Part shown: positions 8,441-64,000 of the stretch, piece after piece
Numbering within the stretch: the stretch's first letter is position 1
How the letters are laid out: each line of letters opens with the position of its first letter
NCBI RefSeq assembly: GCF_000003605.2
Contig: NW_003155239.1
Location: 648,355-712,354, forward strand
DNA length: 64,000 bases
From: Saccoglossus kowalevskii
Taxonomy: Eukaryota; Hemichordata; Enteropneusta; Harrimaniidae
Direction of reading: 5' to 3'
Program-made: the position numbers and the translations under genes
The notes under the pieces: generated by a model
The model's input: only the letters and a program-made list of their open reading frames with translations
Database searches by the model: none
What the model was told of the DNA's origin: nothing

Positions 8441-8613
<173 letters not shown>

Positions 8614-25242: not shown

Positions 25243-25290
25243 ATTCATTCATTCATTCATTCATTCATTCATTCATTCATTCATTCATTC
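25243..25290. repeat. (ATTC)12 microsatellite
   Basis: Twelve uninterrupted ATTC units, read directly. Confidence 0.98.
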
Positions 25291-27000
25291 GATACGACGG
25301 CGATGGCAAACATTTCTGTTTTTATTGTTCATTTAAAAAAATACATATTTATTTACAAGTTTGAAAAAGATCGAATCGAGAAAGTAGTAGCGAATACAAT
25401 ATAATTAGTTGATATATAGAAATCATTATAGGTAAGTGATCGCCATAACCGATGCGGCCGAAAGTTGAATTAGAATCTGCATTAGTCTACAGAGTGTGGC
25501 ATGCATAAAAGATTGACTCGCTGAGTTCCATACGTCAGGAGCAATCTCATCAATCCCAACCCCATAATTTATTTGACTATGATTTCATAATCTCATCTTT
25601 TTTTATACATCGGCATTATATTACATGAGAAGTGTTGTGCAGTTCGAATATCAACTGATAACCTTGAATGAACCTACAAATCATTCCTTGATATCGCGAG
25701 ACAGCCCTTTTTATCTGTCCACGGGCTGTCTGTCCTCTCGTTATCCAGAACAATCCATTATAATTGTGCTCTTTGATGTCACCGACACGAGACGTATGTA
25801 GCAAACAGCGTGCCTTCCAGCAACTGTGCTGCTCTGTCCAAGGAAAGACACAGCGATTGCTATTAATAAGAAAGAACAGCATTTAAATTTGCTATATCCG
25901 ATTTTAGTTTACCGACATCGTGACCATCCCGTGATCATCTGGTTACATATATTTATGAAACTAAGTTACTTCTACGACGAGTCGAAGAAAGTGTATACAT
26001 ATTTGTGTGTGTGAACACAAGAACGCTAATCTACGTTGTTGCGATGCAAATATAAGGTAATGTTGTTCACTGGTATTGCAGGTTTTGTGTAATGTTATTT
26101 ACACTTAAATATGAACACGATTAAAGGGTTTTGTAATGATAGCGCTCTATGCATAATATTTTTTTTCTTTCCACTTGTTATCTTCCTTTGCAAACAATTT
26201 TGTTTCTTGCCCATTCACAACCAAAGTAAAAATGCAGCGTACGGCGGAAGTCAGTAAATGTGACGAGCAAATGGCACACTTAAAATCATTGCTGAAACAG
26301 CCCTTGAATAATAAGCTTTTATCGTAGGAGTGTGGCAATGGTTGAGCATTTTATAGAACACGTGTCAAGTTGGCGCAGCACAATCGATGTAGTTTGTGGG
26401 TAACTATATATTATGATGTATGTTAAAATGCTTACAAACTAATGGCGTCAACGTATGATGTCACGGAATATATATAATTTTGCAATTTGAGTGTAGACTG
26501 TTGAAAAATCATCGAAGCAACATGAAGCGACACTTAACCCACTAACGAATGAGTTCATACTGAAACATGCGCTCAATTACCATGCATCATGCACGTAATT
26601 CAGACCATATTATTAACATGGCGACTTGCACATTCTTCACCAATGGTTTTGTCTATGTATTGTTTTTGCCGCTTTCTGTACAATATGAATGCACACTTTA
26701 TGAATTACATTATAAGACACATATTGTATGACGGTCCTATTCATATTGTTTACGTATTTGTATACACGTTGTGTTATGCAAATCGTCTTCCCGTGCGCAG
26801 TCGGAGAATCGCCATTACCGTGCATTTGATGAAACGATGGTGTTGTCAAATACGTCACAATGACTAAAATTTATGTATATATTCAATACATATATATACT
26901 GTATAGTGGAATGTTTACAAACAGACGTTGTACTTTTCTGTTTATTCAATGAAAAATTATTTTATCCAGACAAAACTTCAATACAACATTTTTATAAAAC
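25291..27000. other. Non-coding stretch
   Basis: No gene could be supported. A minus-strand frame at 25616-25882 is protein-like in composition but carries no motif or convincing splice context. Confidence 0.45.
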
Positions 27001-27014
27001 GCGCCCTCTAGCGC
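27001..27014 (-). promoter_or_regulatory. Possible CTCF-type site
   Basis: The minus strand reads GCGCTAGAGGGCGC. This agrees with the core of the animal CTCF motif (YAGRKGGCRS) at all central positions and differs only at the outer C and A positions. One sequence match cannot prove binding, and the same word is part of some transposon ends. Confidence 0.25.
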
Positions 27015-27868
27015 TTCTATGACGTAAAAATGACGTGCATGGGTGACGGCAATGTCGTTGAAATCAACTAACGTATTTTGTCATGTAGTCGTTTGTCATC
27101 TAGAATATAGTAACATCTCTCAAAAAACATATAATTTGTTGATGGTTGACAACATATCAAAATCATACCGACGCTTTAAACGGCCGCGTGTCACACATCC
27201 ACGTCATGGAAGCGCCTTGTGTATTTACAATATGTGAGGAAATTAGCTAGTTGATCGATAAAATGTTGTGAATCAATCAAACGAAATGATTAAAATGGCT
27301 GTACAGCGTACACACATTTTTGGACAAGTTGCTATTTTAATGGTATAATAGTATTCTCATTCAAATCGGTAATTGTTGACACCTGTTTCAAGATTCGTAT
27401 AATCATGTAAATCAGACAACTGGTATGTATTAATAAGAATTTTATTTAAAGTAAAGTTAAAAACGTTAAAATTATTTTTAACAGACATCATTTTTTGGTA
27501 AGTTTGGTTTGAATGTACTTCCAAACCTTCAATGGATTACATTCCCAATCTTATTGATATAGATATAAGGAGATTTGTTTGATTGGTAATTATTAGATAA
27601 ATTGTTTATGCATGTATACATTCCAATTCTGTTATACCATGCAGTTATACCAGTAATTTAAACTTAGATTTTAAACAGAGATTATGACATAATTGTATTA
27701 GCATACTGACAAAAGCACTAACTTTATTTATTATTCATAGCTCATGTAATTACAAGGTCCGCACATATTAAAGGCTATCGCTGTTTTAAATCATGTGTTC
27801 GATTTGCACGCTTTGTAGCAGAATACGATCTTCTATTTTTTGTGACGTGGTCCGTGAAACGTATAATA
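27015..27868. other. Non-coding stretch
   Basis: AT-rich. TGACGTAA lies at 27020-27027. A pair of overlapping AATAAA words on the minus strand at about 27723-27732 could serve the candidate gene end at 27869. Confidence 0.4.
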
Positions 27869-28053
27869 CTAGATTTCACAGACGGGACCATAAGTCATCG
27901 CATCGCATCGTTGTGTTGAAGTGTTGCAAGATGGGCATTTACAATAGCAATATTTGTTAAACAAAACGCATTTCTCTGTAGTTGGCCGCGGATAAACAGC
28001 TAGTTTAATTATTGTTACCAAATTTGTTCCATGCAAAACAGCTCCAGTCAGTC
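27869..28053 (-). CDS. Candidate terminal exon, cysteine-rich C-terminus, unrecognised
   Basis: On the minus strand TTTAATTTACAG makes a good acceptor (intron side 28054-28065). It is followed by a frame that stays open to TAG at 27869-27871, and the same frame is also open upstream to 28153. The C-terminal third is cysteine-rich (KCVLFNKYCYCKCPSC, then RCD and VCEI). Overlapping AATAAA words lie about 140 bases past the stop. Codon use looks natural. The family is not recognised; a small secreted or extracellular domain is a guess. Confidence 0.3.
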
Positions 28054-31000: not shown

Positions 31001-31459
31001 TATCGGTGGGGTTTGACAATGACGAGATTTAAAAATAATACAAATAAACTAAGTAAGCTGAAATAAAATCATCAGCAATTCCGACTTGATACTTACACTA
31101 GTGAACACTCATGTATGTATGTATGGATTGATTGATTGATTGATTGATGGATGTATCTGAACATGTATGAAATTAATATATTGTGTAATATTAAAGATCA
31201 ACGAAATGAATGCCAACGCATGCAACTGACTTAGATTTGCTTTTTAACACAACTTTTATATTGAATTATCTATAAGAGCGGAATTATTTAAAGCTATTGT
31301 GAGATAATGTTGTCTTAACTGGCGAATGGCGAACAATTGTATTACAAATAATAATGACAGTTACGATATAAATATTTTATTTATTTATTTAAAATTTCTG
31401 AACTCAAATCTCATACTTGTGATTTCCATTACAAGAGGGCATTGGATTGTGGGAAAAAT
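28066..31459. other. Non-coding stretch
   Basis: A full CRE palindrome is at 28753-28760. A TTGA/ATGT microsatellite patch lies at about 31111-31155. No gene is recognised. Confidence 0.5.
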
Positions 31460-31515
31460 AATGTTTATCAACACAAATGTCGCACATGCGCAGCGCGACG
31501 ACTGCCGCCTTTTAA
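31460..31515 (+). mobile_element. TTAA MITE, probable right-hand part, copy D
   Basis: The right end (CATGCGCAGCGCGACGAC, then CCGCCT and TTAA at 31512-31515) resembles the right end of copy C at 48084-48188, and the preceding TGTTTAT phrase fits as well. The left end cannot be placed, so this is a decayed or truncated copy. Confidence 0.4.
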
Positions 31516-42500: not shown

Positions 42501-43403
42501 CACAAATGGATTTTTAATTTCTCTGGCAGTTAATCAAGCAGAACCAACAGTATCTTCTCAAAGTTTGATTACGGGAGAACACAGACGGCACGATTGGTAA
42601 CATTGCATTTTAATGGGTTAATGCCGGATGATCTCATAGCTGTCAACATGTGTTCCGTAATATATACTAGCAAGAACGGTGCACTCGCATTCCTAGGTAG
42701 TTATGTACATACAAGTGTATTACATACCAAGATTGCAAAGAAACATATTTGACTTGATTGTTATTCAATGTAATTTTGCTATACGACACGATAAATCCTG
42801 ACTAAGTATCACATTGATTGGGAAATACAAATGACAAATAATCTCATATCATAGCGCTTTAACATATGTGGGTACATTTTTTTCAATTAGATGATTAGCC
42901 ATTTTTAGTTTCGCGATATATTATGTCCATCGTGTCTACTTATTATCGTTCATTATTATTTGTTGTTGTTTTTATTTTTTATTTCAATACTGTTCATCTT
43001 TCAAATAAACAAATAACGACTGTCCTATACCAGATACATCTTGTACTCCACAAGTGCTTCAATTAGGTTTGTGGCGCTATTCCAAATACTTTCACAGATG
43101 TGGGTGTTCTGTGCAATACATATAGGAATTTCATTATCTCGTTTATATTACAAGTCTCAGTAATCCGATATCTTTAATCGACAAGGAAGTTTGCTAACAT
43201 ACGAAACGGAAGGGGTCTCATACACGTATATTGATTGATCGGCTAATAAGTAATATATACTTACTGGCCCAGACTGAGGTCGATATTATACATACTATGG
43301 ACTGAGGCAAATAATATTCACCTTGGGACAATACCTCTTGTGATCTTCTAAAATCGAAATCTGAATAAATACGCAGACGTTGTAGTGTTCACTTTTTCTT
43401 GCT
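39576..43403. other. Non-coding stretch
   Basis: A full CRE palindrome is at 39706-39713 and TGACGTAA at 40835-40842. A hydrophobic 81-codon frame at 40353-40598 has fair codon use but no motif or splice support, so it is not called. Confidence 0.45.
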
Positions 43404-43570
43404 TTAAAGTGGGGGGGGGGCGTCACCTGCGCACGCGCGGGAATTGGGTCCCAAGCGATGATACCAACACACGCTAAGAAGGCAAAGGCTCAAGGGTAGA
43501 AGCTTGTTTGTAAACAATGACACGCTATGGCCACCTGACGCATGCGTAGGTGATGACTTCTCCGCTTTAA
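43404..43570 (-). mobile_element. TTAA-flanked MITE, copy B (longest)
   Basis: TTAA flanks at 43404-43407 and 43567-43570 enclose a copy of the 15.3-kb element in the opposite orientation. The outer ends are AGTGGGGG (with a run of 10 G at 43411-43420) and AGCGGAGAAGTCATCACC on the other strand. Interior matches with copy A include the CCATAGCGTG and CCCGCGCG words. It has no coding capacity. Confidence 0.8.
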
Positions 43571-46500
43571 GAGCAATAGTGTTTAGAGGCATACTGTCAC
43601 ATATTGCCATTCAATTGTTTTCCAAAACACATTGATGCAATTCAACAAGTTACGTGCCTCTTTCACTCTCAACGACTTTTATGGTTTATTGTGTATATTG
43701 TGATATTCCATTGCCTTTATTGAGTGTTTGTTTCCGTTGTCTTTATTCGTGTCCGTACATATATGCATGGCACATTGCAGTTTGTATATTATATACTACA
43801 AGTCTTATCATGAATTTCTGTTGGTTGTTTTATCTGATATTTGATTGGCTATTTATCAGCATTGGACATTCAAATCTCAGTCACACAGGAAGTCCTTCCC
43901 CCATACCTATTATGTAGTACAAAACTGACCTCCAAAGAAAACCAGAGCATCATAGCTCAGTAGCGTTTAGTGTTAACACATTTAGCTTAATTCAGTTGAT
44001 CCGTCTAAATGCATATTTTGAAATTATTTTCGCACTATCCAATTCCAAATGTGATGTATATATATCGGGCAAAGTAGGGCACCTCAGAGATTTGTAAAGT
44101 GTGAATACAATTTTAACATTCGTAGGATTTCCTAGATGTATCACTACATCAAAATGTGTCGATCAAGTATATTATATAACATTCTAATCCAGACGTAATT
44201 AGGCTTGTTATAATAAGATTACCACATAGCGGACTGGGGTATTTGCGTACGCTGATCTAAGATGCAGATGGGGGCGGGGGCGGGGGTAATTATACACCAT
44301 ACCAGGATTTGGTCAATATGAGATATTGTCTCACAAAAACTTGAAATACACGACTTTAATTTTTAAAAGAGTGCTTTTTTTCCAAAACGTATTTATAATT
44401 CAAAAATATACGTAACTCGCATCCTTATGTAACCTGGTTTGTATTGCACACAAAAACACAAACATTGTTTGTATTAATAGTGCCATGCTTGTATTAAATA
44501 TTTGCAAAAGGGATACATGTGTAGATGTGCTTGCAAATGGTCATGGTGGTGACAATTTGAGACGGAAAAAAAGAATAATTTTGCATATATTATCACAATT
44601 CAACATTGTGGAAATATATTCGAAACAATGACACGTGCAACAACCTGATTTTAATTGCGAGACAAATGCAGGATAGAATGAACTCGGCAATAGTCGATCT
44701 TTCTATGAGTACAGCTGAGAGGGTAACTATTCGTTCACCTTATAGGATACTGTAATAATCACACATTGAAAACGCCAGGGGCAAGGCACGTAGACGCTGT
44801 TAGATCCATATCACTCTTGATATCTAATCGCTGAAGTCAAGATAACACGATTGTACTCAACGTATATACATGATACATGTTAAATAGATGCGATTGTTTA
44901 TACAGATAGTCGTTCTTGAATTAGGGTCGAGAAATGTGAATGTGCATAATTCTTTGGTCATTTGGCAGTATTGAGTATAAAAACATGCACATAACCCGGG
45001 GTTGTAATTATGCGGAAAAACGCACGTCACCGTCACCCTCTGTTTGTTAAAAGAAATACATACGTCGACTCGATTAACTGTCGGTGTGACAGGCGGCACG
45101 TCGCACACGTTCAAGGTGATTTATGATAAACGACATCGGTATTTTCACACAGATTCTTAAGTCCTAGTTTTTGTGAGTGTGTTTGTTGACTAACCTCTCA
45201 AACTCATTTCAAGCCATCGTCGATATTAAATGTATAACGGTGATCACATATTGAGATCTGTTTTGTTTTGGTATTATAATACTAATCCGGTATGTAAACA
45301 AAATGAATGGTTGCTATGAAAACAGATTATCAGTCTTTTACCTTTTACAATATGGTTTCATTTTATGACGTTGTTTTCAAATGAGAAAAAATGAGTTAAA
45401 CGTCCATGAAAGTGGAATTGTTGAAACAACAAATTGAGATGGTTGTACATTCTTAGTTGTTAGATCGAATTCTCGTGAACGACATTATTGTAGACCTCGG
45501 GGACATACGTGCAAAATGCTGCTCTTACAAACCAGAAAATTTGAAACGTCACGAAACTGTTCTGGTTGACACTTCGACTAATTCATCGACAAGGTCATGT
45601 TGACATTGCAACTGGAGATTTTCATGAAAGAACATGATTTAGGTACACGCCTGGCATCTAATAATGATGCCAGTACTCGAGCGCGACAACATCGAAGTCA
45701 AAATTGTCAAAGTAATTTCTTCAAATGGAAGTCATACGCCGCAGGGTAATCTCCAACACCGCCGTTGAAATCACTGGTAGATCGCACTACTAAATCTGGA
45801 TTGAGTGAGCGAGAGATGTGACCGTTTACACAATCATCACATTAACCAATGTCATCACCCCCCAAAAGTAGACAGATAGTAATTCATTATTGGTGTCAAA
45901 TTTGTTATAACTCCACAGAAATATCTTGTAAACAAAATTAAAGTTGCTGAAATCACAATGATATTCGTCAATGTTACAAATGACTTTTTTCTCATTAAAT
46001 CGGTGTACGACTTATTGTTTTATTTATTTTAGTTTCAACCAATAATACGAGTGTGACAGGATGTTACCAGTAAGCACAAAATAAACACACCTACCCCGTA
46101 AACAAAGCGATGACATACTCTTCGAGTCCAACGCGTTCTGTCAATCGCACCAGTGATTACGTAGAATCAGTCATAATTTTTATATTGGCAAATTTTCAGA
46201 TCGTGAACGTGATTTATTTGTGCAACAATCGCTGCGTGATTAGACAGACTAGACGTATTCAAAAAATAAATATGCGTTTTTACCGACATTGATAGAGGCA
46301 CAATTACGTGTATAAAATAGTCGAGCAGATGGTCATGTGATCATTATCATAAAACAGAATAATTACAGATACTGACAGACTGTTGATTCCCCATCTCTGA
46401 CAACAGTTCTTCATATTTATCTAAAATTGCATTTATTATATCAGTAAGTGGACGAAACGGGTCAGCTCACACGCAAAGTGCATTCGCATTTGGAAACAGA

Positions 46501-48083
46501 ACAGTGACAGTAATACCATATACACGAACGTGCAACTTAAATTAAATAGAAAAACTCAAATTAATACATTTGAAGCTAGCAGGGCAATTTCAATTCCAGC
46601 CTCCTGCCTTCTTTTTCTGTCGTAATTGCCGCAAATGCCGCGCCAGGACGCCATGTTAGAACACGTATTTGGAACTTACATATGCATTCATGTAAATTGT
46701 TATACATATATAAGATCCGATTTCTCATGCTAGCCTACATCATTCTGAATATAACTTTAACTCATTCTATCACACATATGGCATATGGTTGTTTCTTTGT
46801 ATATCAAGTTTGTGTAACTTAAGTTACAAGTTCGCAAAAAATGCACGACCCGGGAACACGCGGTAATGCCTCGTTTGTCTCACACATAAACCTGCTAACT
46901 ACTCATGGAAGCACGGTTAATTCTTTATATTGCCCACTACGTTGTTACATTCAGTTCAAATGTAAGGTTAAATAGCATTAATCAATCAGGTCAGTCATGT
47001 CACTATTAATCATTTAGCCAAGGTAGATATCCATTATAGTAAGACGCAGCTGAATCCGAGCCGACCCCTGCCCTTAGCAAACCAATACACGGGACTATAG
47101 AGAAAGCACGTTCACAGTAAGCAATTCTGTAGAGCCCGCTGGCGGTTAACCTTCTACTTAAATTCACTTTGTTGTTGTTCATGTTAGCCTGAGCTATTGT
47201 CGGGGAATCCAGTTTTCCTATCTTATACTTGTTTTTTAAACGACATGGTTCTCAACACAGTGCAATTCGATAGTGATAGTGATAGTGAAGTGAGTGATAG
47301 TTAAAATTAAAATCCATACTGGGTCGTTATGCTTTGTTTTTCCCCCTTAAACACCGCTTTCACCAATATAACATCTGAATCGCATGGCGAGCCTTCGTGT
47401 TAGCTACGGTCATGGCCATTGCCATAGAAAGTGGGGGGTTGTAATTGTTTTGAAATGTGCAAAACATTTATATAATGAAATAGTTATTTGAACATGCATT
47501 AAAATAGCAGGCTACTTCCACGTGCAGTATATAGTCAACTACATGGCACATGGAACAGCGGTAATTATTTATGTTTACTCAATATACTTTGTTCTCTATC
47601 TAACGATTATTTCATATTAAAAAATCTTTTACGATGGCAATGGTCGATATAATGTTTCTACCAATTAAGTAAGTGTCAGTCAGTTTTGTCAAAATAGTAA
47701 TCTACACACAAACATAAAATCTGAATTAATGTACATCCTCTTTTGGCAATTTGTGAAAAATATTGAAATTTCTTTTTACTTTTATACCAATTGTACATTT
47801 ATATCGATGGTACATTAATATGAGAGAAAACAAACAAGTTTCCATGGGAAATGACAGACGGAATCAAAAGTAGCGGTAATTTGTCTTAGATTGGATATTT
47901 TGAATGTCGGTGGTCGTTGCGCCGCGCATATGTTACATTTGTTTTGATAAAACACTGATTCTCCCACAATTCAATCCGCTCTATTAATGGAAACACAAGT
48001 ATGAGGTTTGACCTGGGCGTAACTTGAACTAATTACCGCCGTGAGTTTTTCGATACCTACCAATCACCAAAGAAATTACCTAA
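43571..48083. other. Non-coding stretch
   Basis: A GGGGGC repeat lies at about 44269-44286, and three GATAGT units at 47269-47286. Short frames such as 46110-46292 (one hydrophobic segment) cannot be supported as genes. Confidence 0.45.
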
Positions 48084-48188
48084 TTAAAGCTTGGTAACGT
48101 CTCAGTTTGTACTGTGCAAAGTCATCATCTTTGTTTATACGAGACCCACATCTCGCGCATGCGAGGGGCGACGACCACCAACCTTTAA
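48084..48188 (+). mobile_element. TTAA-flanked MITE, copy C (short)
   Basis: TTAA at 48084-48087 and 48185-48188 bound about 100 bp whose ends form inverted repeats (AGCTTGGTAACGTC on the left; AGGTTGGTGGTCGTC read from the right). The CGCGCATGCG palindrome and GACGAC end resemble copies A and B, but the middle is shorter. Confidence 0.65.
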
Positions 48189-49639
48189 GAAAAGTCGACA
48201 TATTTATTCTCACAAGCAAAAATAATCGCTCACTGCTACTGTTTTGAATATTATTTGAAAATGTTTTGGTCCATGCGATTCAGGTCCAGAAACTAATGTG
48301 ATTGGTCAGTCCGTGATTACACGGGGTTAGCCATAAAGATTCTGTGCGGTACGTAATTGAACTGCTGTAAAACGAAAGTACAATGTTCTACATTGCTGGC
48401 AAGTTTACTAACTGAACTGAGACAGTTCACTGAATGTGGTATGAAACTGAATGCTGTACCGACAATAATTATTCTGCCACAACATACGTCTGTGGTCCCA
48501 GGACCAGTTGATAGGTTTATATAACGTTTCAGCTGCCGAGGAACCTCGGGAATCGTTGAACATCACATTTTGGTCCCAGCAGAGAAACCTTGTCACACCC
48601 TAACACATAGCCGTAGTCAACAGTATTCAGGTTTGGTATTGTGATGATGATGCTTTCTGACAGTGCCTTGGTTACTCTAACTAAATGACAGTAATTAAAA
48701 TGTACGTCTTACTTAATCTATTTATAAGTACGTGATTCGGAATAAGATATCACCTGACGTCATTAAGCAGAATTTTACTGAAGACTTTTCCAGTGTAATT
48801 GCAACCGTACGGGACGTGGTTGAGCACCTACATCCTAGACACAACTCCAAGTAATTATATATACAATTTAAACCGGAATGACACATCAAATCGTGTGTGA
48901 TATCTTTGGAGCGGGGTGCGATATCAACCTGCCCCGCTCTGGGCTGGATACCAGAAACTTTACTAGACTTTGTCTCATGCAATTTGTAACATTCTGCCTT
49001 GAATTTGACATTCCGTCGATACAGTCGTGATAGTTATCCACGGTGTAGTCTAGAGATGGTATCGCGACTTACCTCCGAATAAAGAGACGAGGTAAAACAC
49101 ATTACAGAATATTTAATTAATCACCTGCGTCATTAATACATCATTACTAACTAATTTTAAAATGGATATGGAAAACACAACAGTTGAAAACAGTTCATTC
49201 ATCCGGGATGTTATCATCGGCATTGCCTGCCGTTTTATTATCCAACTTCTGTGTCGAACGTTTATGTCTTGGAACTAATAAAATATTATATGCACTTAAT
49301 CTCCGCCATATACATTAGATTTTGTTGGGAGTGAACTGAGTCTGGTTTTAGTCTTTCAACAATAGTATGATTATTATTAATACTGTTATCAGACAATATG
49401 TGTGCATTTTCGATGTCCTGTATGCCCCACTCTGAGCTGCTCGTCGACACAGTGTTCACACAAAATTGTAGTCGATCTCTCCCTCGGGGCGTTATTGGTA
49501 TAATTGCCATTAATCCAACCCGTTCTATAAAATAATCAGAGACGACAAGTTGAAGAGAATTTTGACAATCAGCTTGTAATACAAAACGTTTGACAATTTT
49601 CTTATTTACGAAGTGGTTCTAGATGGGGGCAAGCTACGC
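48189..49639. other. Non-coding stretch with one hairpin and weak coding-like frames
   Basis: A CRE palindrome is at 48755-48762. A perfect 8-bp stem (GAGCGGGG with CCCCGCTC) lies at about 48911-48942. A plus-strand frame at 48724-48852 and a minus-strand frame at 49286-49510 look protein-like but lack motifs and splice support. Confidence 0.4.
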
Positions 49640-49754
49640 TTAAGATATATGAACCGTAAATCGCGGAGAAGCTATGCGTAATCCAGATGATACGAATCGT
49701 CATGCGTTTGGGGGACCCATGGCCCTCCTAGCTCCCCTCTGGATCCGCCACTGA
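49640..49754 (-). mobile_element. DNA-transposon end fragment (TGGCGGATCCAGA family), second copy
   Basis: The minus strand from 49754 reads TCAGTGGCGGATCCAGA, then GGGGAG and GGGTCCCCC, the same terminus as at 11500-11516. No partner terminus is seen nearby, so only one end remains. The inner limit is a guess. Confidence 0.45.
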
Positions 49755-50258
49755 CATAGCGACACAACGTCTTCCTTTCCTGACTCTGGCACCATTCAAA
49801 ATAGTATTTTCCACAACAAATCAATTTTTTGGGAGATTACGCTAGTTTGCTTAGTATTCCGATTTCCATACTTGCCAATATCTTCATTTCAAATTCCTCA
49901 CCGGTTAGGAACACACTGATAAATGTGCAGCTCCGTAACTAAGAATAGTAAATTTCAGGTAGGTAGCAATTTCTATCAACTTTTCTGACTGACGCCTGAC
50001 AATAAACATTTACTTACCCGACAAACTAAATCGTCATTACAATCGAATTTCTTCACTTTTCCATCAGAACCAAAATTCCAACAAACATTTTTGCGTGACG
50101 TGGGCCACTCATTGAACGAAGAGCCCATGTAATACGCCGTTGAGTGTTCTTCGGAATGGATTCTTTAGCGAAAGTTCGCATAGTCGAATCCATCACAGGA
50201 TAAACACATTTCTGAAATAATGCAAATACACAAAATGTAATGACATTTTCGCCTTGAG

Positions 50259-50419
50259 TTTGCTAAATAACACGCTATTAATAGACAAGAAATACAAGTC
50301 AAAAACGTCAAACACCTACCTCGGGAACAGCTACTGGTTCAACATCACCGAGTCCATTCTAACATTATACTGCTTATTAGTTGACGTGATTCCACTCCAG
50401 AGACGTCGGAAAATTAGAG
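50259..50419 (+). CDS. Candidate internal exon, possibly EXPERA/EBP-like membrane protein
   Basis: A frame with natural codon use ends at a good donor (TTAGAG|GTAATG, GT at 50420-50421); a weaker acceptor (CCTTGAG) precedes 50259. The peptide has TYLGNSYWFNITESILTLY followed by a hydrophobic stretch and a basic QRRRK. In emopamil-binding-protein (sterol delta8-delta7 isomerase) family members the core reads RY-x4-(aromatic)-x4-E-T-I-T. Here the spacing from Y to E is the same 11 residues, with E followed by SI, but the usual aspartate is absent. The resemblance is suggestive only. No neighbouring exon with the next family motif was found. Confidence 0.3.
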
Positions 50420-52502
50420 GTAATGCATTGTATCAGTAATTGAAAAAAGAAATACGTAGTTGTCTGACATGTACATCGATCTAAGCATCCAGTCGATCGC
50501 ATTACTTGGATTCATGCAGGTGGCATTCTGCTCGCTGTGATTGGTTCATATATTAATATATGCATCACAGGTGTTAATGCGCGAATGCTTACTATATGGT
50601 TAAACGAGTTAAACAATTTTCTCTGATATTAACTTCATTTGTGCATTACAACAGTCCTTGGGGCTATTTCATTATATGTTGAGAGAGGTTTTTTTAAATT
50701 AGAGGGGAATCCTTAGTATGTTGTGTATGTTTGATATCGCATTCTTACCACGGTAATATCAGAATATGTTGGGTTCTACCTCGGATTTTGGTCGTACGCA
50801 CGTGTAATTATTGGATGGAATGTTCTTTAGCATGGTGTACTCAATATTTAAATGTTCTATATCGAGGGATGCAGTGATGTTGCATAGGGTATACTCTAGT
50901 GTTACTGGCGAAGGTGTAGACCAATTTACTATACTCAGTCAGAACGTGATGTCAGAGGTACTCTAGGTATAATGCATTGTTGTCATGATTCTGTGTCAAA
51001 TCGTCTTTCTCGCAAACTCCTCTCCAGTGTTTATTCATGGATTATGTAATTAAACTTCCTTCTTAACGACCACAGACTGTTTGAACTGTTAATGTCAATG
51101 ACCATCATATCTCGATAGTTTATATATGCTTTTACAATCAATATATTTACCAATATGCCAAACCAAACTTAATATTTAGTATGTGTCACCCGGAAAAATA
51201 AGATTTGCGCTAAACTTTTGTTGGCGAGTCTGATTCGAATGTTACAAAACAAATGTTACGTCATTATAGTTTTCACATAGTAATAACACCGACCAAGTTC
51301 AGCTGTTGAGCAGAAAATCGATGCACTCACTCAGTTCGTTCTAATTAATAGAACATCGAAGAGCAAGCCTGATTTATAAATCATATGATTTATTGAATTA
51401 ACTATTTGGACATGAAGGCAAATATGTTACTATTAGCTCGTAATTCTTGGCCATTCGACAATTTCAATTATGCGTGGCGTTCATGGACTTGTTGAGTTTG
51501 TGTTTTTTAAAAAAACCACTGAATTTCGTCGTTTACGTTCAATGACATACGGGACGCACCCGCGTAGAGATCACCGGGCCGGCAACATTGCGTAAACACA
51601 TATTCTTCTGGGTTGAAAGAAGCAATTTTGTTGGGTGCTAATCTTTAAAAAAATTCTAAACTTTTATTTTCAAAATTCGGAATACTCATCTCTATATTTC
51701 ATATCACATAACACCATCTCGTTTAATTCCATTTTAGATAACTACGTAATAAATCTTTGATTTATTCATCAAACAAAATAATAAACAAAATACGCATTTC
51801 TGCTTTGTGTGTAAAACTGTTATTTGCAATCATTGCCTTATTTTTTTCATTAATCGCTTTGTTAGACCATTGCAATGTTATTGCAATCACATTTATTTTA
51901 CAAGAAACCTGTCACTGTGCTCCCGGCTCAAAACCGAACAAACAAATGTCATGGCATTGTAAATAAATTGGTTATCAATAATTGTATCAATATAATGTAA
52001 CACGCTGTTGAAAATACACACAATTATAGAGTTCAGTTATTCCATTAAATTGAAAAAAGGAAAAGGTCAAGTTGATATGATTAGTATATTTTGTAATAAC
52101 TTGATTTGCTCAATCCATTGAATAGGTTTGTGAACACCCCCACACACATGTATTATAGTAATGTATCATTCCACCATCATTAATTCATAAATCTATATCA
52201 AGAGAAATTTTAAAATGCATCAAGGTGGGTTATATGAATACACGCTAAGCTGACTTTTACCCAGCACGAAGATCATTTATTGATCAATTGCAACTACGGT
52301 TTAATTAAGCTTATACCCACGGGCCGAGTATACGATAGACGTCAACGAAAACATGGCGTGTTTTAATTTTTTATTTAGAATCAAATCAAATAAGATCTTT
52401 CAGCACTAGCTGAATAGTTAACTGCTGATTGAAACTAAATAGACAGTCTGAAAATTGCTAGTGTGATATGCGCCGATTAAAACCGGCGGGAAAGAGCATT
52501 GA
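50420..52502. other. Non-coding stretch
   Basis: If the preceding exon is real, this is its intron or 3' flank. No following exon was found. No repeats stand out. Confidence 0.4.
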
Positions 52503-52950
52503 TAATAACGGCAATTAATATCCATAAATAAAGTAGTAAATTAATAGAATATGATTTTAATGAAGTTCTAATTAACCTACTTTGCATACCTCACTGTTGG
52601 AGGATTGAAAGGTTATTTGTAATCGCAGCTGACAAGGTGTCCTTCATCATGCACGTGTCACCAGTGGAGATGACGTAAAGCAGATGTCAGACAATACGTC
52701 TTCTCATATGAATGTAATAAATCCATGAAAAGGTTTCAATAATATGATTGAATCTTGGTTGTGTAAAAAGCAAACATTGATGATTGAGTCATCATGAAAC
52801 ACATGTATTGCGTAATCACAGACAGGTCACAATATGTATATTTCCACTCAGGTTCTTTCAAATATGCTTTTATTGGTGTAAAGCAGATTTCTGAAAAGCA
52901 AGTTACATTTATAGTACACCAAGAAACGTATGAATAGTATGAGTCGTTTA
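52503..52950 (+). repeat. Duplicated non-coding element, copy 1
   Basis: About 450 bp is shared with 59772-60232 in the same orientation. The core 52542-52830 differs at about 19 positions by eye, with two blocks of over 40 bases each free of differences. It contains a homeodomain-like TAATTAA, CAGCTG, an E-box CACGTG, a CRE-like TGACGTAA (52671-52678) and an AP-1-like TGAGTCA. No frame stays open in both copies. Weaker similarity appears to continue past the downstream edge. Confidence 0.9.
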
Positions 52951-55900
52951 CATGCTCCGCACGTTGTCTCAAATTCTGACATGAAAAGTCTAATCTGTCA
53001 AATACACATCAATGGGGTTTTGTTGATACAATACAATCTGACCGATTGACGGCCATTTCATCAAGCGTTTCACTTACTTACATTTCATACCATGAATATC
53101 TCACGAGGTGACCAGCTGGGCTATATTGTTAGTCGATTGATTACAAATTGTTGTTTTTTATGTTTTCATAGTTTTCACAATTTTTTTATGCGTTTCAATT
53201 TGCAAACAATTCCAACCAATGAATATATAATATCACACTAAAGTACATAAACCATTCATCTGTTTAATATTAATTTAATCATTTATTGTTTTATTTTCTT
53301 TTGCTCATTAGACATTCATTGTTTTGTTGCATGGTATAAAACACATACAAAAAACGAATGGGTTAATGGGAATGTCAACATCACAAAAACCGAACGGATG
53401 TTAATTATTAATATTATAATCTAGCTCCGTGCATATTTCAGTCGATTTGAAACTGAGGTGCATGTTCTCCTACTTTCCAATTAGCGGTACAACAACTTAT
53501 TGGGGGAATTGATGAACTCATGACAATGTGAGGCTATGGTGTAGTGTAATAGTAATCAGTGAAATCAACTATTCATTACGTAAAAGTCATTTGCGGGGAA
53601 TAAAAGCGTTTTCCTGTTTTTTCATTAGTGGAAACGTTATAATATGTTATTGCGATGCAACACAAAGATAGAACACGACTATACTACAGTTTAAATTACA
53701 AATTGTGGGATGACAGTTTACGTTGTATGATTTCGTTGTTATTTTGACAGTGACGTCATCATGATGTTGATTAATGGCGTAAGGTTGTGACCACGCATAG
53801 ATTAATCATTTCCGGTTGATGGTAAAATATAATTATCCATAATGAAACGATATGACTGTATCCCGTTTAATTTTAGTGTGATCGTGTATTTCGATTAAAC
53901 ATTTTTAATATTTAATTAAATAAAATATTTGGAAATCTTTGTGCCACCTCACACGTGTCGCAATCTTCGACCAAAATGATTAGTCCCGTGACGCAGGTCA
54001 TCACAACGTCTTTTCATCAAACTGAATAACATCCGCTGCAACGAACAGGAAACTACATGAAAAACGACAATTATCGAGCCTCGGTTATCTGAGATGCGAA
54101 ATACAATATCGGATTGTTACACGAATAGAAAGTCGTATCTTTTAGAAATATTAGTCCTTCCCGCGTGAGTATGCTTTTAAAAATAGACAAATGACGTGGA
54201 ATTACATATGTCATTTCCTGCGTGGGTAGTCAGTATACCAGACAGACACAATTAATAATTACACACTCATTAATTTTTCACCGGTACACTTCAGATATCT
54301 TACAATGAAACTAATGACTCATAATATTGGGAGATCAACTCAATTATTCACTCTCATCACGCAATATACCATGTATGTGCTTAGGTGTACCTTTTGTTAA
54401 TTTTTCTTACGTTACTAACACTTTCTTTTTCAAATTTCACAACGAATACACTCATGATACGTTTTGTACAGTTATATATAGCACCAATGTACATGTGAAT
54501 CTTTCAGTTGGAGATTAATTTCTGCTTAAAGTTTGAGGCGTTTTTTTAACTAAATATTATTTAAGAATGATGTGTTTCAACGTTACTGGTATTCCATTTC
54601 TAAACATTGTTGTTTAAAGAAATTGCTTGAAGAATTTGTCTATATTTTGTGATTTCTTTTTCAAATATTTACTAGATACTGTTTATTTATTAAAACAACA
54701 TACCATGTTACGTTTATCATGCGATCAGCCGTAAATATGACGTTTATAATATTGTTCTTGAATTCTTTCACCAAATATACTGTTTAACTTAGCTGGATCA
54801 CGTAACATGTGTTAACTGAAGTGATAACATTTCCACACTATCACATTACCATTGCTTGGAGATTGTTGTTTGCATGTAGACTGACTTACATCTGGTCTAA
54901 CACATTTAAAAGATATTTTCATCGTATTTATTATTATGTTTAAATAATACTACTGCAGTCAGAAGTAAACAGTTCACGACGGGGTCATAAATGACAGCGT
55001 CGCTTTCACGGAAAACAAGAAAAAATTGCTCTCATATACATTTTCATATTCATTATGTTATGTGCCTCGTCAATCGATAGAAACGGTATAAGTTAGTTAA
55101 ACATTCCAGCCGTGACTGTCTTTCGGATTGCATAACTCATTTGATTCGAAAAAAAAGTATGACGCTAGTACTCAGAATCGACAATGCAGAAGCATTTGAC
55201 AAGACACAAGTTTATACTTTTGTTATGATCATAATGATTACTGTTCCCATGGTTATGAACAATACCATTACATCATTTGAATAGCGTACACGTTTTTTAT
55301 GAATTGTGTTTTTTGTGTTACAAAGAGCGATTGAGCATGTGTATATGATGAAATGAAACGCTAGCTTACACAAGGCATTGTGAACGCATCTAAAAAGAAA
55401 TAAATTTTCTGAAAGTCACGTAATTACTTCATTTTACATTTCTGCCACGCCTGTACCATATTACTATTATTATTATGCAACAACGAGAGTATACAACTTA
55501 GTTATATTATATTTATAAAATAATTATCTATGCGACGAATTATATCATATAGAAAATTATCAGGTGCTGATTAAAGTTTCTTGAATATTAGTTCTAAACT
55601 AAGTTAGAGATGGTAGACCGCAACAAAGTTGTTTATGGCAATAACTATTATTTGTTGAAAAGTCAATATTTCATCACGAGATGTGAACAGTGATTTGTTA
55701 AGTAATAATCAACCCTGAGAATATCGGAAATAATTAGCAAAAATAAACAACTACAGACAACATCGTAGAACAAAATATATGTATATATAAAACATATTAG
55801 CTGAATATTAGATACTAATTCATTTTAATATCATGTTTGACAGAACAAAGGTATACACTGCATTTGCGTGTTTCGATTATTACAACCTGCGTGTGTTTGA

Positions 55901-56035
55901 TAATCAGTAAAAGAAAATAATATGGGCATCGAACGATGATCGACGCTTGTCATTATTATCTACGTGACCCGTGTATTCAAGCCGCTCACTGAATGTTGAT
56001 ATCCGGGAGTCTTTCATGTCGCTTTCTTATTTCAG
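52951..56035. other. Non-coding stretch
   Basis: A full CRE palindrome is at 53751-53758. Weak similarity to sequence after the second copy (about 53434-53500 versus 60629-60720) hints that the duplication was once larger. No gene is recognised. Confidence 0.4.
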
Positions 56036-56088
56036 CGCATTGACGCTTTCCAATTTTGATTGTGGAAAGTTGTCAAAGTACGCCGTGA
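56036..56088 (+). CDS. Candidate penultimate exon, unrecognised gene
   Basis: A strong acceptor (CTTTCTTATTTCAG, AG at 56034-56035) opens a short exon. Donors overlap at its end: GTGAGT at 56085, or GTACGA at 56089. Only the second keeps the frame (LTLSNFDCGKLSKYAV) in phase with the next exon at 56224. The intron would be 135 bp. The weaker donor is the doubtful point. Confidence 0.3.
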
Positions 56089-56223
56089 GTACGAAAACTG
56101 AAAACAAAAGTACAATTTTACTTCATAAAAACATATATCGATCCAATTAATATTTATTAAGTTAATAATTTGGTTAGACTCATGCACACGAGAACAATTA
56201 CGTTGTGATATGCCTATGTGCAG

Positions 56224-56450
56224 GAACGCCACATACCTCTTTTTTTCTTCCTGGTTACATGAATACCGCCAGAAGATATTCATCTCTGTGTAAGTTGACG
56301 TTGAGTTCCGGGGCTGATTCCGTCTACCTCATTTTGAAAGGATTTTGCTGCGTTCACTTTGACGATGCAAAAACATTCAAACTACCGATGTTTTTTTCAA
56401 CCCCGGGCAACTTTGGATTTGACGATCATTACTTCATTGAGACAATTTGA
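56224..56450 (+). CDS. Candidate terminal exon with adjacent poly(A) signal, unrecognised gene
   Basis: An acceptor (TATGTGCAG, AG at 56222-56223) is followed by an open frame to TGA 56448-56450 and, two bases on, by AATAAA (56452-56457). Codon use is natural and richer in G/C than the flanks. The peptide includes SLCKLTLSSGADSVYLILKG, CCVHFDD and FFSTPGNFGFDDHYFIETI at the end, with alternating hydrophobic residues suggesting beta strands. The family is not recognised. This is the best supported of the unidentified exons in the window, but an earlier start of the gene is not visible. Confidence 0.42.
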
Positions 56451-56457
56451 AATAAAT

Positions 56458-57848
56458 GAAAATAATATGCATAATTAGGCCAGGCATCGACTGTGTAGGC
56501 TTCATTGTGGAATTTAACATAATCATTGCTTCTAAAATTGCTTTTGTATTCATTGGTATGTGTCAGGTAAGTAAATAAGCAAATATGAACATTTTATGAA
56601 AATGTATTGTACAATAAGAGCTAGATCTTATATTCTGCCGTATATGCACTTCGACTAATATATAACTTCAAACTAAAGTAAAAAGAAAAACCTTTGTTCG
56701 ATTATATAAATTAACTCACGTACGCAGTCTCTATCCAGTTAATAATCCGAAGTTAAATTGATTGGCAGCATGCAAATGACATTTCTCTATTTACTTTTTT
56801 TATATACATCCGCCAAATTGTGTGTTTTGTCAACGAGTGTTAATTAAATTCTGAGAAGTGAAGTTTACAGAGGAATGCACCAATCACAAGAGCATGTCAT
56901 TAATTTTTTGCACGATTCACGTGTAAAGGTGTGCCAAACCGTAAACCACACTCGCTTTATATATGTATTTTTAATTGAACACGTAGTTAGTACAAATATT
57001 TTCTCGTAATTGCTCCACTATCCACAATTTAAAAACCAAATCATGTTACCTGTTCACACAGAAGAACGAGTCATTGTCATCATGTTGAGCTGGCAACAAA
57101 TATTCATTATTGGGGGGGGGGGGTGCAAATATTACGTAATAACCGTCCATTCGAAATCAGGTTCTCTGGATAAATTCTCAATTTGAAATAGTCTAAAATT
57201 TTATCAGAATTAGGGCGTGGTAGAGAAAGAACCAAATAACGTTCTATAACGGGTTATAAACTAAAATGAACTGACTGTTTGTATATGGTATTTGGACCTT
57301 TAAGCAGTAGTGAAGCGTTGAAAGAAGAATTGAACAAAATCAGCCAACACCTTCGACTGTTATTTGTACATTTAACAAGTGCAACAAACAACACACACAA
57401 GATAAAAAAATAAAGGACAACGCACTGTTCATTACTGTTCTGTGTGATAACAAAGCGAATACGGGAATGCGCGCAATAATGGCCGAGGCGTACACTGCCG
57501 CCTGAGCCCTGTTCTTACACAATAGGAGGTAGTTCGAAGTATTTTATTGCAATTATTATACCATACATGTGTCACGCGCAACGTAATAGTACCGTAATTG
57601 GTATAGTACAGGTGTGATGGTTCAAATACCAAAATGGCAACAGTAACAGAAAGACTTCCCTGGCGGCGATGATAACATACGAACACGGAGCCAACAGATG
57701 AGGTTTCAACTGGTACTGGTATTATTATACTCTGCAAACATCAAGTACAATAACGCGGTAAAACTCCACTACTCCAATAACTAGATACTTAAACTCCAAT
57801 ACAATTCAACGAGATCTCCGATCTGAACTCAGTGCTGAACAACTCCCC
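56458..57848. other. Non-coding stretch with poly-G run
   Basis: Twelve G lie at 57112-57123. A minus-strand frame of about 101 codons (57432-57737) lies downstream of the heat-shock-type promoter but matches no heat-shock protein or retroelement protein that I know, and it has no ATG start. Confidence 0.4.
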
Positions 57849-58036
57849 TATATATACCCCCACTGTCTATAAATAGACCATTACATCAGCATACATAATG
57901 AGTCTGGAACTTACTAAAAATTTCTAGAACGTTCCATTACCTTCTATTGCCTCCTACAGTGTTCTATTACCTATTCAACCATTTTCTAAAAAATATAGAA
58001 TATTCTACCCAGACACAGTACGGTTCTGGAACATTC
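57849..58036 (-). promoter_or_regulatory. Heat-shock-element cluster with TATA box
   Basis: Two perfect three-unit heat-shock elements of the form TTCnnGAAnnTTC lie at 58024-58036 (TTCTGGAACATTC) and 57922-57934 (TTCTAGAACGTTC), with a two-unit GAATATTC at 57998-58005. On the minus strand these stand upstream of a TATATATAG at 57848-57856, about 65-190 bases away, the normal arrangement of a heat-shock promoter. A TATAAATAG on the plus strand at 57868-57876 leaves some doubt about direction. The transcript it would drive is not identified. A stress-responsive retroelement LTR is an alternative. Confidence 0.55.
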
Positions 58037-58268
58037 TCAGTGACACGGAAGTGGTAAATAAGTCGTATGCGACAACATGAAACTTTAAATATATGCGCCG
58101 CTGTATCTAAAAAGAAAGAAATAATGTTCAAAAGATCTTTATGACATTTTTTGTAATAATCAAATTGAAACTGTCTACGTTTATGGTATACAACTATGTG
58201 CTTTCCCAGGAGAATGCATTAACCTTATGGGAAAGATAGTCAAACACAAATCTCATACTACAGAGTTA

Positions 58269-59454
58269 CGAGGGGCGTAGTAGAAGATTAATGAAACTTG
58301 GCACAGTTATTAGTCGTTCTCTACATAGGAATCACTCATGCATGCATTTATCCCATCGTTTGAAGCAGCTCTTGACACCGTTTTTGTAGAACACCCCAGG
58401 TTGTTCCTCCAACCGCGTTGTAACTTTAGAAATCAAGGCTGCATCATCCGCTTTCCTTTCGAAAACAACTTCATGGCTGGGAAGAGATTAAAGTCAGAGG
58501 GTGCAAGGTCAGGGGAGTAAGGGGGATGGGAAGGTTTTTATAGCCACATGCCCGTGCTTCTGATCTGGCGACATGCGAGTTGTGGACCGCAGCGTTGTTC
58601 TGCAGGAGGAGGATACCTTTGCTGAACTTGCCCCGCCTCTTGATTTTGATAGCTTCTCTTAATTTCATCAAAAGTGATGCGTAATAGGCTACTGTAATTG
58701 AGGTACCCTTTGCCAGGAAATCTGTCATCACTACTCCGTCCTGGTCCCAGAAGACTGTGAGCATGACCTTGCCAGTGAAGGGCTGTAGCTTTGCATTTTT
58801 TGGAGGTGTTGAGTCCAAGTGCTTCCACTGCATTGGCTGGGCTTTGGTCTCTGTATCATAGTCATGGACCCAAGTTTCATTTTGTGTAATCAGTCTTTTG
58901 ACTCATCTTCTTGGCACGTCTCCAAATCCATCCTCGAGCACTCGACGCAACCTGGGAATCCATCTGGCAGACAGTCACACATTATGCATATGCAAATGGT
59001 CATAAATGATAGTTTCCACATACCCTGTACAAATATTGACCTCTTCGGCTATTTGGTGAACAGTAATGCGTCGATCTCTCAAATGGCTGCCTCAACTTGA
59101 CGGACAGATGCCTCATCAATGGCAGAAGAGGGTCGACCAGGTCTGGGAGCTGTTTCCACAGACTTCCGTCCATGTTTTACAAGGTCATATGGTGGGGCAT
59201 CATCACCATAAGTTTCTTTCATTTCATCAAAAGTGTGCGTCCTTTCAAATACAAAAATCGGATCACTGCAACACTCAACTGGATCCATTTCACACCTGAC
59301 TCGGTTTAAACACCTGTAAATCAGAAACCACAATTAATTCAGAGCTGTTTTTGCAACATAACCCATAGAGATGTAAATCATTACACACGCAAAATTTCAT
59401 CTAGATCAGACAACTGGAAATGGGTCAAGGGCATTACTTATTGAACGCCCCTAG
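58269..59454 (-). mobile_element. Mariner-family DNA transposon, inactive
   Basis: The element of 1186 bp has imperfect terminal inverted repeats beginning CGAGGGGCGT at the left and, read inward from the right, CTAGGGGCGTT. It is flanked on both sides by TA (58267-58268 and 59455-59456), the mariner target duplication. Length and internal transposase fit a full-length mariner. The transposase is broken (see the pseudogene entry), so it cannot move by itself. Confidence 0.93.
58330..59333 (-). pseudogene. Mariner transposase pseudogene
   Basis: Read from 59333 downwards, the N-terminal DNA-binding part is visible (THTFDEMKETYGDDAPPY), then the PRPGRPS linker. A frame change at about 59081 leads to LRDRRITVHQIAEEV. 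Stops follow at about 58981 and 58905. The catalytic part continues with NETWVHDYD, ILLLQNNAAVHNSH and, after a one-base change near 58525-58540, PPYSPDLAPSDFNLF. Further changes precede the C-terminal WDKCMHE. The family uses three aspartates. Here the first (codon 58879-58881) and second (58597-58599) are both asparagine, and only the third (58508-58510) is kept. The segment between the helix-turn-helix part and the linker seems shortened. Confidence 0.92.
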
Positions 59455-59456
59455 TA

Positions 59457-59771
59457 TTTCAAATAATTGTATTGTGATCCGTATATTGCAAATTCAATTC
59501 GTATTCAATGCAAATTGAAAATTGGGAAAAATAAAATAAGTAAAAACAAAATAAAAAACATTGGCATAAAATCATGACTGACAGTATGTCAAAAAAATGA
59601 GAAAAAAACTCTATACATCGTGGGTAGTGACATTATGTTAACTCATTATTTACAATTTTGAGAAACGAAATGACATTAGTACACACGTTTTATCTTATTT
59701 GTGTCTGCCATATATTCATTAGTAACTATGATAATAATCCGATAACGACAGACGGATAAGAATATTTATAG
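59457..59771. other. Short non-coding stretch
   Basis: Very A/T-rich spacer between the mariner and the duplicated element; nothing else is seen. Confidence 0.5.
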
Positions 59772-60232
59772 TAATAACGACATCAATTAATATTCATAAA
59801 TGCAAAACAATGCACGAATAGATTAATAGAATATGATTTTAATGATGTTCTAATTAACCTACTTTGCATACCTTACTGTTGGAGGATAGAAAGGTTATTA
59901 ATAATCGCAGCTGACAAGGTGTCCTTCATCATGCACGTGTCACCATTGGAGATGACGTAAAGCAGATGTCAGACAATACGTCTTCTCATCTGAATGTGAT
60001 AAATCGGTAAAAAATCTCAATAATATGATTGAATCTTGGTTGTGTAAAAGCAAGCACTGATGATTGACTCATCATGAAACACATGTAGTGCGTAATCACA
60101 GACAGGTCACTCAATATGTATATTCTTGTCTACTCAGTTCATTCAAATATTCTTTTATTGGTGTAAAGCTGATATCTGAAAAGCAAGTTGCACTGCTACA
60201 CCCAGAACCGCATGTATTGAATCGTTTCTATG
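59772..60232 (+). repeat. Duplicated non-coding element, copy 2
   Basis: Partner of 52503-52950, displaced by about 7.27 kb in the same orientation. The core 59824-60110 keeps the CAGCTG, CACGTG and TGACGTAA (59953-59960) words at the same spacing; the AP-1-like word is TGACTCA here and TGAGTCA in copy 1, and both are valid AP-1 sites. Similarity drops sharply outside the core. Confidence 0.9.
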
Positions 60233-63200
60233 CTTAATGCGTTGTTCTGACGAAGTGTTTTTGATCAATGTTTTACTTTTTGTGTCGACTACTTGGCAAT
60301 TTGTTTAATCAAATACACATATCTCGTTTTTGTGATAAAGAGACGTTTTTTTCGTGTGAGTATGAAGACATTTTACAGTCTGGATTTAAACACATTGCAA
60401 TTGGTTTATTTTTAGAGTACTAGTCATTTTTAAAGCATTTGGAGAATGAATTCAGTGCTCTGTCGCGATTAACATACACAAAAGTGTTATTTATTTGAAC
60501 AACAGGAAACAGATACAAAATTTCCATTATATGTACAAAGCTTTGATTGATCGGTTTCTGTGAAACTCAGGCCCGATTTAATTATGAATATTAGCAAAAG
60601 TCATTAATCATTTTCCCCTGTTCCGGTTTCAGTCGGTCGTAGTGATTTGAAAAATAGTTCCTAAATTTGTGGTCTGTTTCCTCAGACTCTCACAACTGGA
60701 CGTATTACAACTTATATATTCTATGTCAATATCCCATATTCCCGAAGGCGACCGTACCCAAACAATCATACGTTGAAACATTTTGCCATCATTGCTCTTC
60801 TCTCATATTCCCATCGTAATTATCATACTAACAATGTCTACGAGTATGGTTGTCACCACAAAACCCAATGGGTATACCCACGGATATACATACGTCACGG
60901 CAACGGATGAAATAATTGCAGATTCCAATAATGCTTTAACCTGATATTCCAATTAAATAAGAAAATGCACCACCTGCAGGGGAGACAGATTGTTCAGACT
61001 CCAGAGACAATCGAGTTGATATCAAAAATCGTGCTTGTTTCTTTCTTTCGGATACACAGTCATTATTTAACAGGAAATCTGACATCAATGGAAAGATATA
61101 GAATTACTGTAAGTTGGCGATGTTACCTTACACATAGGTTACACTCAGGTAATTGAGGTACGCTGAATTATGGAACAGACATTTGTTATAACTAGTAGTT
61201 TTTAGGGTGCTCGACAAAATGCCGAACTGGGTGACAATCAGGTTTTCGTTTTAACTTTGGATTCGGCGGGTAATGTAAAAAGTGTCGATTGCGCTCGACT
61301 AACTACAATATAATTATGAAGAAAGAAGTGAAGATTGGTAGGTGGTTGCATGATATATTGTTTAAAGGAATTGCAACGTTAATGTTGAATTAAGTTACGT
61401 AATGACGCATGCAATGTTGCGAAAAGTTGAAAATAAATCAGCTTTCCGGAATTTTGACTGAAACAGTGTAAGACACAGTGTTGATAGGATGGACATTTTT
61501 TTTTCAGTCACGTGCATGTTCGTAATTTACCTGTAATTCATATCACTTCACCCAGGTGTTAGTCTCTGTGCCGTAAGCAGAATTGTCTGGCTAATAAATA
61601 CATGGCTTCATATATATGAAGAAATATATCCTGCATATTGTCTGTGACGTCATAGATCTAACTTGCGCGTGTTAATCCAGTCACTATAACGGCGTTCATT
61701 ACATGTTGTTTTTGAATGCCTTTTTTTAGTATAATAGCATGATGAAATGACGTTTGCTTATAGTGGCGAGTTCAAAGCCCGTGCTTGGTGTGTTTTGTAA
61801 CTTGCCTGTGATTTACATTGACGTACAATTACGACTCCGGATTGATTTATTTGATTTGGGATATGCAATCCGACCTCCTAATTACGTACATTTGTTAGTA
61901 TTTTAAATGAGCACATGCCAAAAATAATAGCTGACCGGATTACGGATGTACTTTTTTTTGAGTAAAAAGAGATGTCAATCAAAGAATCCAATTACTTTTG
62001 TCCCTTAGATGACAGAATGTCACATACATATACACTCAACCTCTCATTGAGGTCAGAGTCAGAATATAGCGCTCGCAAAGATAATGTTGGCAATTGTTCT
62101 GGGAATAATGCAATACCCGATTTAAATTAATTATATTTATCCAGGTATTTGTGTGTTGGAAGCTCCATGTGCCGCCAGTACTCGGTTTTTAAATTACGTC
62201 ACAGAATAACAGATAACAACAGAACAATATACTGAATATTAAGTTAAGAGAATAACCGAGATCAGAGAGGGGAATTATAACAGGCTATCCGCATATTCTG
62301 TGAACCCGGCGCACCTGTCCTGGTTTCCGGGGTTCTGTTTAATAGAACTCTATATATAAGGAGCGACAGCGTCTTCTAGTTACTAATGGACATTCCGATT
62401 ACGTCAATGAAATCAATTACGTAGATTTAAGAACATTTAGTTAAAGTTACGAAACGGGAACATACATGTTTAAATTGATTTCAATCAATTACAAAACGAT
62501 AAGATCATTATTGCGCGATGTGTGATAAGCTGGAAGTAATATACATCGGCGAAATTAGCGAAATGCGTCACGGGAAAAACTCGTTGTTAATTACAACACA
62601 CATAGTAAAAACGCTTTTGTGCTTATTGAAACATAGTTGTTTAATTGATGATGTCTGGCCTAACATAACGTCAAATGGAAATATAATCGCGGAGATAATT
62701 TCCTGTCCCTTTTCAGTACTTTGACCAGTGCGTTGTTATTACTAAAGTGTTTCCGACAATTAGTCAAGTGTAAGGAAAAGCTCTACAAGCATGTCACCTG
62801 TCGCCACGTCAAAGCAGGCACAATTAGTAAATTAGTAAGGATGCCATGAAGGACTGCCATAATAATAGCTTACGTGGAATGCTGTTGTTTTGCAATACTT
62901 TCGTTTCACGGTCTTCGGTTATGCGCCGTTCCAAAGTTATCCTCGGATTAAACCTGTTGAAAATAACACACCACGTTCACAATATAGGCTATTGGTAAAT
63001 CTGCGTGTGCGCGGGCGTGCATACGTTTACGCTAGCACTCAAATTACGTGGTCAAATTACGTAACTTTGGAAGCAGTTACCAGTATATACATTTTATCTC
63101 CGCATGCGTAATAAGGTTACATTTGTATAAAATGTATGGATGTGACAACTGCAGACGACTTCAATATAAATTATAATAAATCCAACAAGATGTGTAACAC

Positions 63201-63300
63201 ATAAATGACAACACATCAACCTTATGTTATTGCCGTTCTGCAAACCACAATCTCAGATATTGGATTTAATTTAACCACGGAAAAATATATAACCGAAACA
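60233..63300. other. Non-coding stretch
   Basis: A full CRE palindrome is at 61645-61652. Frames at 60965-61156, 62518-62724 and 62890-63111 were read but not supported as genes. Confidence 0.45.
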
Positions 63301-63402
63301 ATTTCCCTGATTAGACCTTGGACTAAATGGCCGCCGAGCTTCAGTGAGATCAATATAGTCACGTGACTATACTGTTCTACCATGGTTATATAGATCAGGG
63401 AA
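63301..63402. mobile_element. Possible small MITE with TTTCCCTGAT inverted ends
   Basis: TTTCCCTGAT near 63303 is repeated inverted as ATCAGGGAAA near 63394-63403. The centre holds a perfect 18-base palindrome. Target duplications could not be made out and no second copy was found, so the call rests on the inverted ends alone. Confidence 0.35.
63354..63371. repeat. Perfect 18-bp palindrome centred on an E-box
   Basis: TATAGTCACGTGACTATA reads the same on both strands, with CACGTG at the centre. It could be a strong bHLH-type binding site, a hairpin, or the heart of a small transposon. Confidence 0.9.
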
Positions 63403-64000
63403 ACAGTGGATGCTATGATGGGAAATAATAGTAGTAGTAAAATGCAAGTCTTGCGGGTCTCTAACTCTCAACTAGATCTCAAATAGGTGGGCTGATCTCG
63501 CCTCCACCCATGCAAAACTTCGTGCCGCCGCCTCTGCCAATAGACAACGTAATCGAGTGTAATCGAATAAGGAGAAAACCCCGATAAGATGGTTATCTAA
63601 ACTATAAATACGCTGGTAGATAATCAGTTTACAGTCGTACTCTAATCAGGGACCGTTTACGCCAATTACGCGGCATGATTGCACAATATGTCGAGGCGTT
63701 TCTGTCGCTGTTCATCATTATATGGCAATTTACATAAGTGACCCGGCGCCGGATTACATCACACCACACAAACATTACATGAAATTAAACTGCGATTAAA
63801 ACCAATCACACGGAAATACTCGGGAAAAGTGATTACATGTACAACAGCGATAGAATCGAAGCATTCATACACCAGAAATAAACGCTTCTCTGTGAACATA
63901 ATATTCATTCCCTAATTTTAGAAGTTACATTAGACAATAATGGGGTGGTTTGAAGGGTATTTATTTTCCTTCAACAGAATACTTTCCAATCTTTGCGTAA
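63403..64000. other. Non-coding stretch
   Basis: No gene or repeat can be assigned up to the end of the window. Confidence 0.5.

Follow-up and report, generated by a model that had tools for sequence, protein, structure and literature searches.

A duplicated non-coding element with a slowly diverging core in Saccoglossus kowalevskii, probably a local copy of a cis-regulatory element

What are two similar blocks, several kilobases apart on one contig of the Saccoglossus kowalevskii genome (NW_003155239.1), which share a motif-rich middle and diverged surroundings: a regulatory element that was duplicated and kept, or a mobile repeat? The self-BLAST of the window (the whole analysed stretch of 64,000 nucleotides; threshold E up to 1e-5) detected copy A (52503 to 52956, + strand) and copy B (59772 to 60234, + strand) in the same orientation with 85.6% identity over 473 columns (E 5e-150), the strongest of the three self-similar pairs listed. 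The start-to-start offset of the matching pieces (families D1-D3, D5 and D6) is 7272 to 7285 bases. The slowly diverging core lies on the + strand at 52540 to 52828 in copy A and, according to the alignment and the difference counts, at 59822 to 60108 (or 60109) in copy B. The cores differ by 17 substitutions (9 transitions and 8 transversions) and two single-base gaps. Identical runs between the copies include 44 and 43 bases, and at this level of overall divergence the longest run is not unusual when taken alone (P 0.095 and 0.12).

No similarity was detected in the flanks of the copies (300 and 1000 bases), where between 22 and 51 of the 60 dinucleotide shuffles equalled the local scores. 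A larger tandem duplication of 7.3 kb was rejected because the flanks lack similarity. An earlier note on this DNA had described two same-orientation blocks about 7.27 kb apart, about 19 differences between the cores, two identical runs of more than 40 bases and flanks that are hardly alignable, and these measurements agree with it on all of these points.

The earlier note named a mobile repeat as the main alternative and called for a genome-wide count, two copies only being the outcome in favour of an enhancer. The search of the genome (572,110,611 bases in 4830 contigs) with 52503 to 52950 as the query gave two candidates and two matches, namely the locus of the query (copy A) and, with 86% identity, copy B, whereas the positive control, the window repeat at 43403 to 43570, gave 1326 candidates, 40 of them scored. 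Very common words were skipped in this search and its repeat counts are lower bounds, but it recovered copy B in spite of the divergence, and the control repeat too. Two copies only were thus found, and two matches in 572 Mb against 1326 candidates for the control make it very unlikely that A and B are a mobile repeat, which loses its place as the main alternative. A third copy was found neither within the window (weak nhmmer rows, E 0.95 and worse, were disregarded) nor in 23 neighbouring loci (E up to 1), where 124,439 of the 230,000 bases are N.

With a mobile origin, A and B would be either separate insertions of a short repeat or the LTR pair of a single retrotransposon. Two direct repeats that are each about 450 bases long and lie 7.3 kb apart have an LTR-like geometry, and mobile repeats do occur in the window; the copies, however, have edges that fade and none of the usual ends. 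The best 12-base matches in the search for terminal inverted repeats were 9 and 10, a chance level, since 89 of 100 random blocks also gave 9 or 10. The ends showed no convincing duplication of a target site, the best direct matches being 5 and 6 bases and placed differently in A and B. The six-frame Pfam search of 46000 to 64000 detected mariner transposase as the sole domain above the cut-off; domains of a reverse transcriptase, an integrase or RNase H were not found between the copies, so A and B are not LTRs flanking a recognisable retrotransposon. Together with the two genome-wide matches, this leaves either form of mobile element with a very small probability.

The differences between the copies are unevenly spread over the whole block (P 0.0008 with 10,000 shuffles and 0.0003 with 20,000 shuffles). 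The segment scan, redone within every shuffle, detected the slowest segment at 52543 to 52837, where 20 of 296 columns are changed, the rest of the block having 36 changed columns of 157; this contrast was equalled in none of 1000 shuffles. The unevenness inside the core alone is weak (P 0.11 with 30-base bins and 0.007 with 20-base bins). The two other repeat pairs of the window, of about 80% identity, gave no indication of uneven divergence (P 0.91 and 0.76), and they are shorter (154 and 113 columns), which gives this comparison less power.

Small local duplications are common, and a neutral duplication of a few hundred bases, drifting since, would fit a copy number of only two. It is improbable in view of the non-uniform divergence, for which the P value of 0.0003 and the absence of an equal contrast among the shuffles were given above. 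Gene conversion between copies of no present use, with the middle overwritten more recently than the edges, would also yield a slow middle and faster edges and would be favoured by the local direct orientation. A single conversion tract should be even inside, yet the patch at 52708 to 52735, within the slow segment, has 8 differences in 28 bases, and a piece of 91% identity (52852 to 52907) lies past the slow segment and is separated from it by a stretch that matches poorly; we consider this explanation unlikely. The few genome copies and the slow core favour a duplicated functional element.

CAGCTG, CACGTG, TGACGTAA and TGASTCA were each detected once per copy in corresponding places, and each copy has five CANNTG sites (E-boxes) in addition to TGACGTAA, TGASTCA, TAATTA and TTTGCATA at matching positions. 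In copy A, the cluster of E-boxes with TGACGTAA spans 52626 to 52710 (CANNTG at 52626, 52652, 52681 and 52705; TGACGTAA at 52671), and the pattern positions place the corresponding cluster of copy B at 59908 to 59992. The AP-1-like site, also located by pattern positions, is TGAGTCA at 52785 to 52791 in copy A and TGACTCA at 60065 to 60071 in copy B. The change between two forms that was reported for this site is present, but TGAGTCA is the reverse complement of TGACTCA, and both forms are one palindromic site read on opposite strands. The E-boxes may be bound by bHLH factors, TGACGTAA and TGASTCA by bZIP factors, and TAATTA and TTTGCATA by homeodomain or POU factors.

The level of five E-boxes per 289 bases is met at 2.9% of the sampled window positions. 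A small motif set, picked after the sequence was seen, has five sites in each core, the mean for a length of 289 bases being 0.62, and the five-site level is reached at 0.23% of the window positions, cores included. The substitution at 52708 affects a free letter in an E-box, and the one at 52788 affects the free letter in the AP-1-like palindrome. None of the 17 core substitutions is at the 34 fixed motif letters, for which the probability by chance is 0.12 with a motif set chosen post hoc; this pattern may reflect selection at the level of the motifs, with which it is compatible, and is not proof of it. The proposal of a duplicate kept by selection stands in part: the two genome matches and the uneven divergence favour a functional duplicate, whose role as an enhancer and whose selection at the named motifs are proposed. 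The CpG observed/expected ratio is 1.05 in the window, 0.56 in the core of copy A (52540 to 52828) and 0.66 in the core of copy B (59822 to 60109), the two core values being based on small numbers.

One frame on the + strand of copy A (52532 to 52678, 48 residues and a stop) proved to be open in copy B as well. It is the longest frame open in both copies, measured stop-to-stop and with a common stop, and the earlier statement that the copies share no open frame was strictly wrong. A short protein-coding exon duplicated with its surroundings could explain this frame and the several changed residues that are chemically similar by eye. Only one of the eight substitutions in the frame is synonymous, however, and seven change the residue; a frame of at least 48 residues was found in 452 of 496 random blocks of 454 bases from the window, the conservation extends well beyond the stop, and the six-frame Pfam search has no match over either copy. 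The frame is probably non-coding, as suggested by the lack of a synonymous excess and by such lengths being ordinary in the window, with a small doubt left by the changes to similar residues, and a coding exon has very little probability.

A structured RNA was also considered and rejected. No fold clearly beats the shuffles in any of the four combinations of strand and copy (z 0.66, -1.28, -0.24 and -0.54), the tRNA search detected none, and the Rfam family search gave no match. The lack of a stable fold and of an Rfam match also speaks against a promoter with an untranslated first exon, which would belong to a non-coding RNA or be an alternative 5' exon and would have been duplicated in tandem. 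The same orientation and the spacing of about 7.3 kb would suit such a pair, and mariner is the only recognised coding domain at 28000 to 64000; we regard this explanation as rather unlikely and give it some weight.

The two genome matches, the lack of coding signs and transposon hallmarks, and a core that is slower than the edges suggest a regulatory duplicate. We propose that A and B probably stem from a single cis-regulatory element that was duplicated locally and is most likely an enhancer, with a probability of roughly 0.6. A short local duplication of one regulatory element would have produced the two copies, and purifying selection on transcription-factor binding would keep the core alike while the edges decay. 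Each copy may bind a similar set of factors, and the pair might act on one neighbouring gene in a partly redundant, shadow-like manner. A more specific form of the regulatory duplicate, in which an enhancer was duplicated without its gene and selection retains both copies as a redundant pair next to a single gene, perhaps that of a neuronal amine receptor, is suggested tentatively and is a good deal less probable.

Exact core words had no matches in viral contigs and prokaryote genomes, a result that is uninformative on animal relatives, and a BLAST search of plasmids and phages with copy A also had none. No description of the element was found in the titles and the starts of abstracts in the literature, which is no proof of absence.

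A duplicated non-coding element is present in a genome as at least two paralogous copies that are neither protein-coding nor known RNA; A and B are such paralogous copies and, judged from the sequence alone, appear neither to code for protein nor to belong to a known RNA. In being apparently non-coding and paralogous within one genome, they resemble the vertebrate duplicated conserved non-coding elements. The vertebrate copies, in the work of McEwen et al. in 2006, are reportedly situated beside duplicated genes and conserved across species, whereas no duplicated gene was recognised with A and B, which are known from one genome. Both duplicated non-coding elements and shadow enhancers have been described before (PMC1852409, PMC10234526, PMC4832353). 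A and B would be a further member of these kinds, the notable point being that no duplicated gene was recognised alongside.

The likeness to the Drosophila shadow enhancers, as described in PMC10234526, is that two elements are situated in one locus and might share the target gene. By the definition given there, both elements of a shadow pair are active on the same gene in space and time, and A and B differ in being known from sequence only. This modelling paper considers that shadow enhancers may originate by splitting or by duplication and describes how they arise as unclear (PMC10234526). The enhancers of the achaete-scute complex in flies are likewise regulatory elements proposed to be born by duplication, but together with their genes (PMC4832353), while with A and B the element alone was recognised as duplicated.

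Should both copies prove active on a single gene, A and B would be a clear natural test of the origin and retention of redundant enhancers, and if the pair is truly redundant, it would be a natural shadow pair born by duplication. The copy-number search together with the uneven-divergence test can flag a candidate regulatory element from a single genome without relatives.

The nearest recognised gene in the window is amine-receptor-like, and its choice as the target is a guess. Its last large exon (16422 to 17513, 7tm_1 domain) encodes the end of a rhodopsin-family receptor, for which the nearest PDB structure is the alpha-1A adrenergic receptor, and which could be an OAMB-type octopamine receptor. 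The starts of A and B are 34,990 and 42,259 bases past the end of this exon (17513). The six-frame Pfam search of 28000 to 64000 detected nothing above the cut-off except the mariner transposase, the rows below the cut-off being ZW10_C2, DUF6787, PapB and DUF4223, and 17514 to 28000 was covered by the list of frames of at least 65 residues. The PDB search with one frame of 2002 to 16001 gave no matches.

The next supported coding exon downstream is SLC23-like (Xan_ur_permease; SLC23A1), about 100 kb past copy B. Nothing was recognised between copy B and this exon in the long-frame lists and one three-frame Pfam scan; more than half of this neighbourhood reads N, and small exons would escape. 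An upstream frame (L014:33-374) resembles by eye the start of the SLC23-like gene and has no Pfam match.

The mariner-type transposase remnant is located at 58471 to 59333 on the - strand, with the Transposase_1 domain within 58471 to 58902, and stops about 440 bases short of copy B. The frame at 59079 to 59333 resembles the transposase start by eye only and has no Pfam match. The repeat that served as the control in the genome search, present at 43403 to 43570 and 15330 to 15479, starts with TTTAAAGT and ends with CTTTAA; with its 1326 candidates in the genome, it looks like a miniature inverted-repeat transposon. A second inverted repeat pair was detected at 47900 to 48011 and 31404 to 31515, with 80% identity over 113 columns and no indication of uneven divergence.
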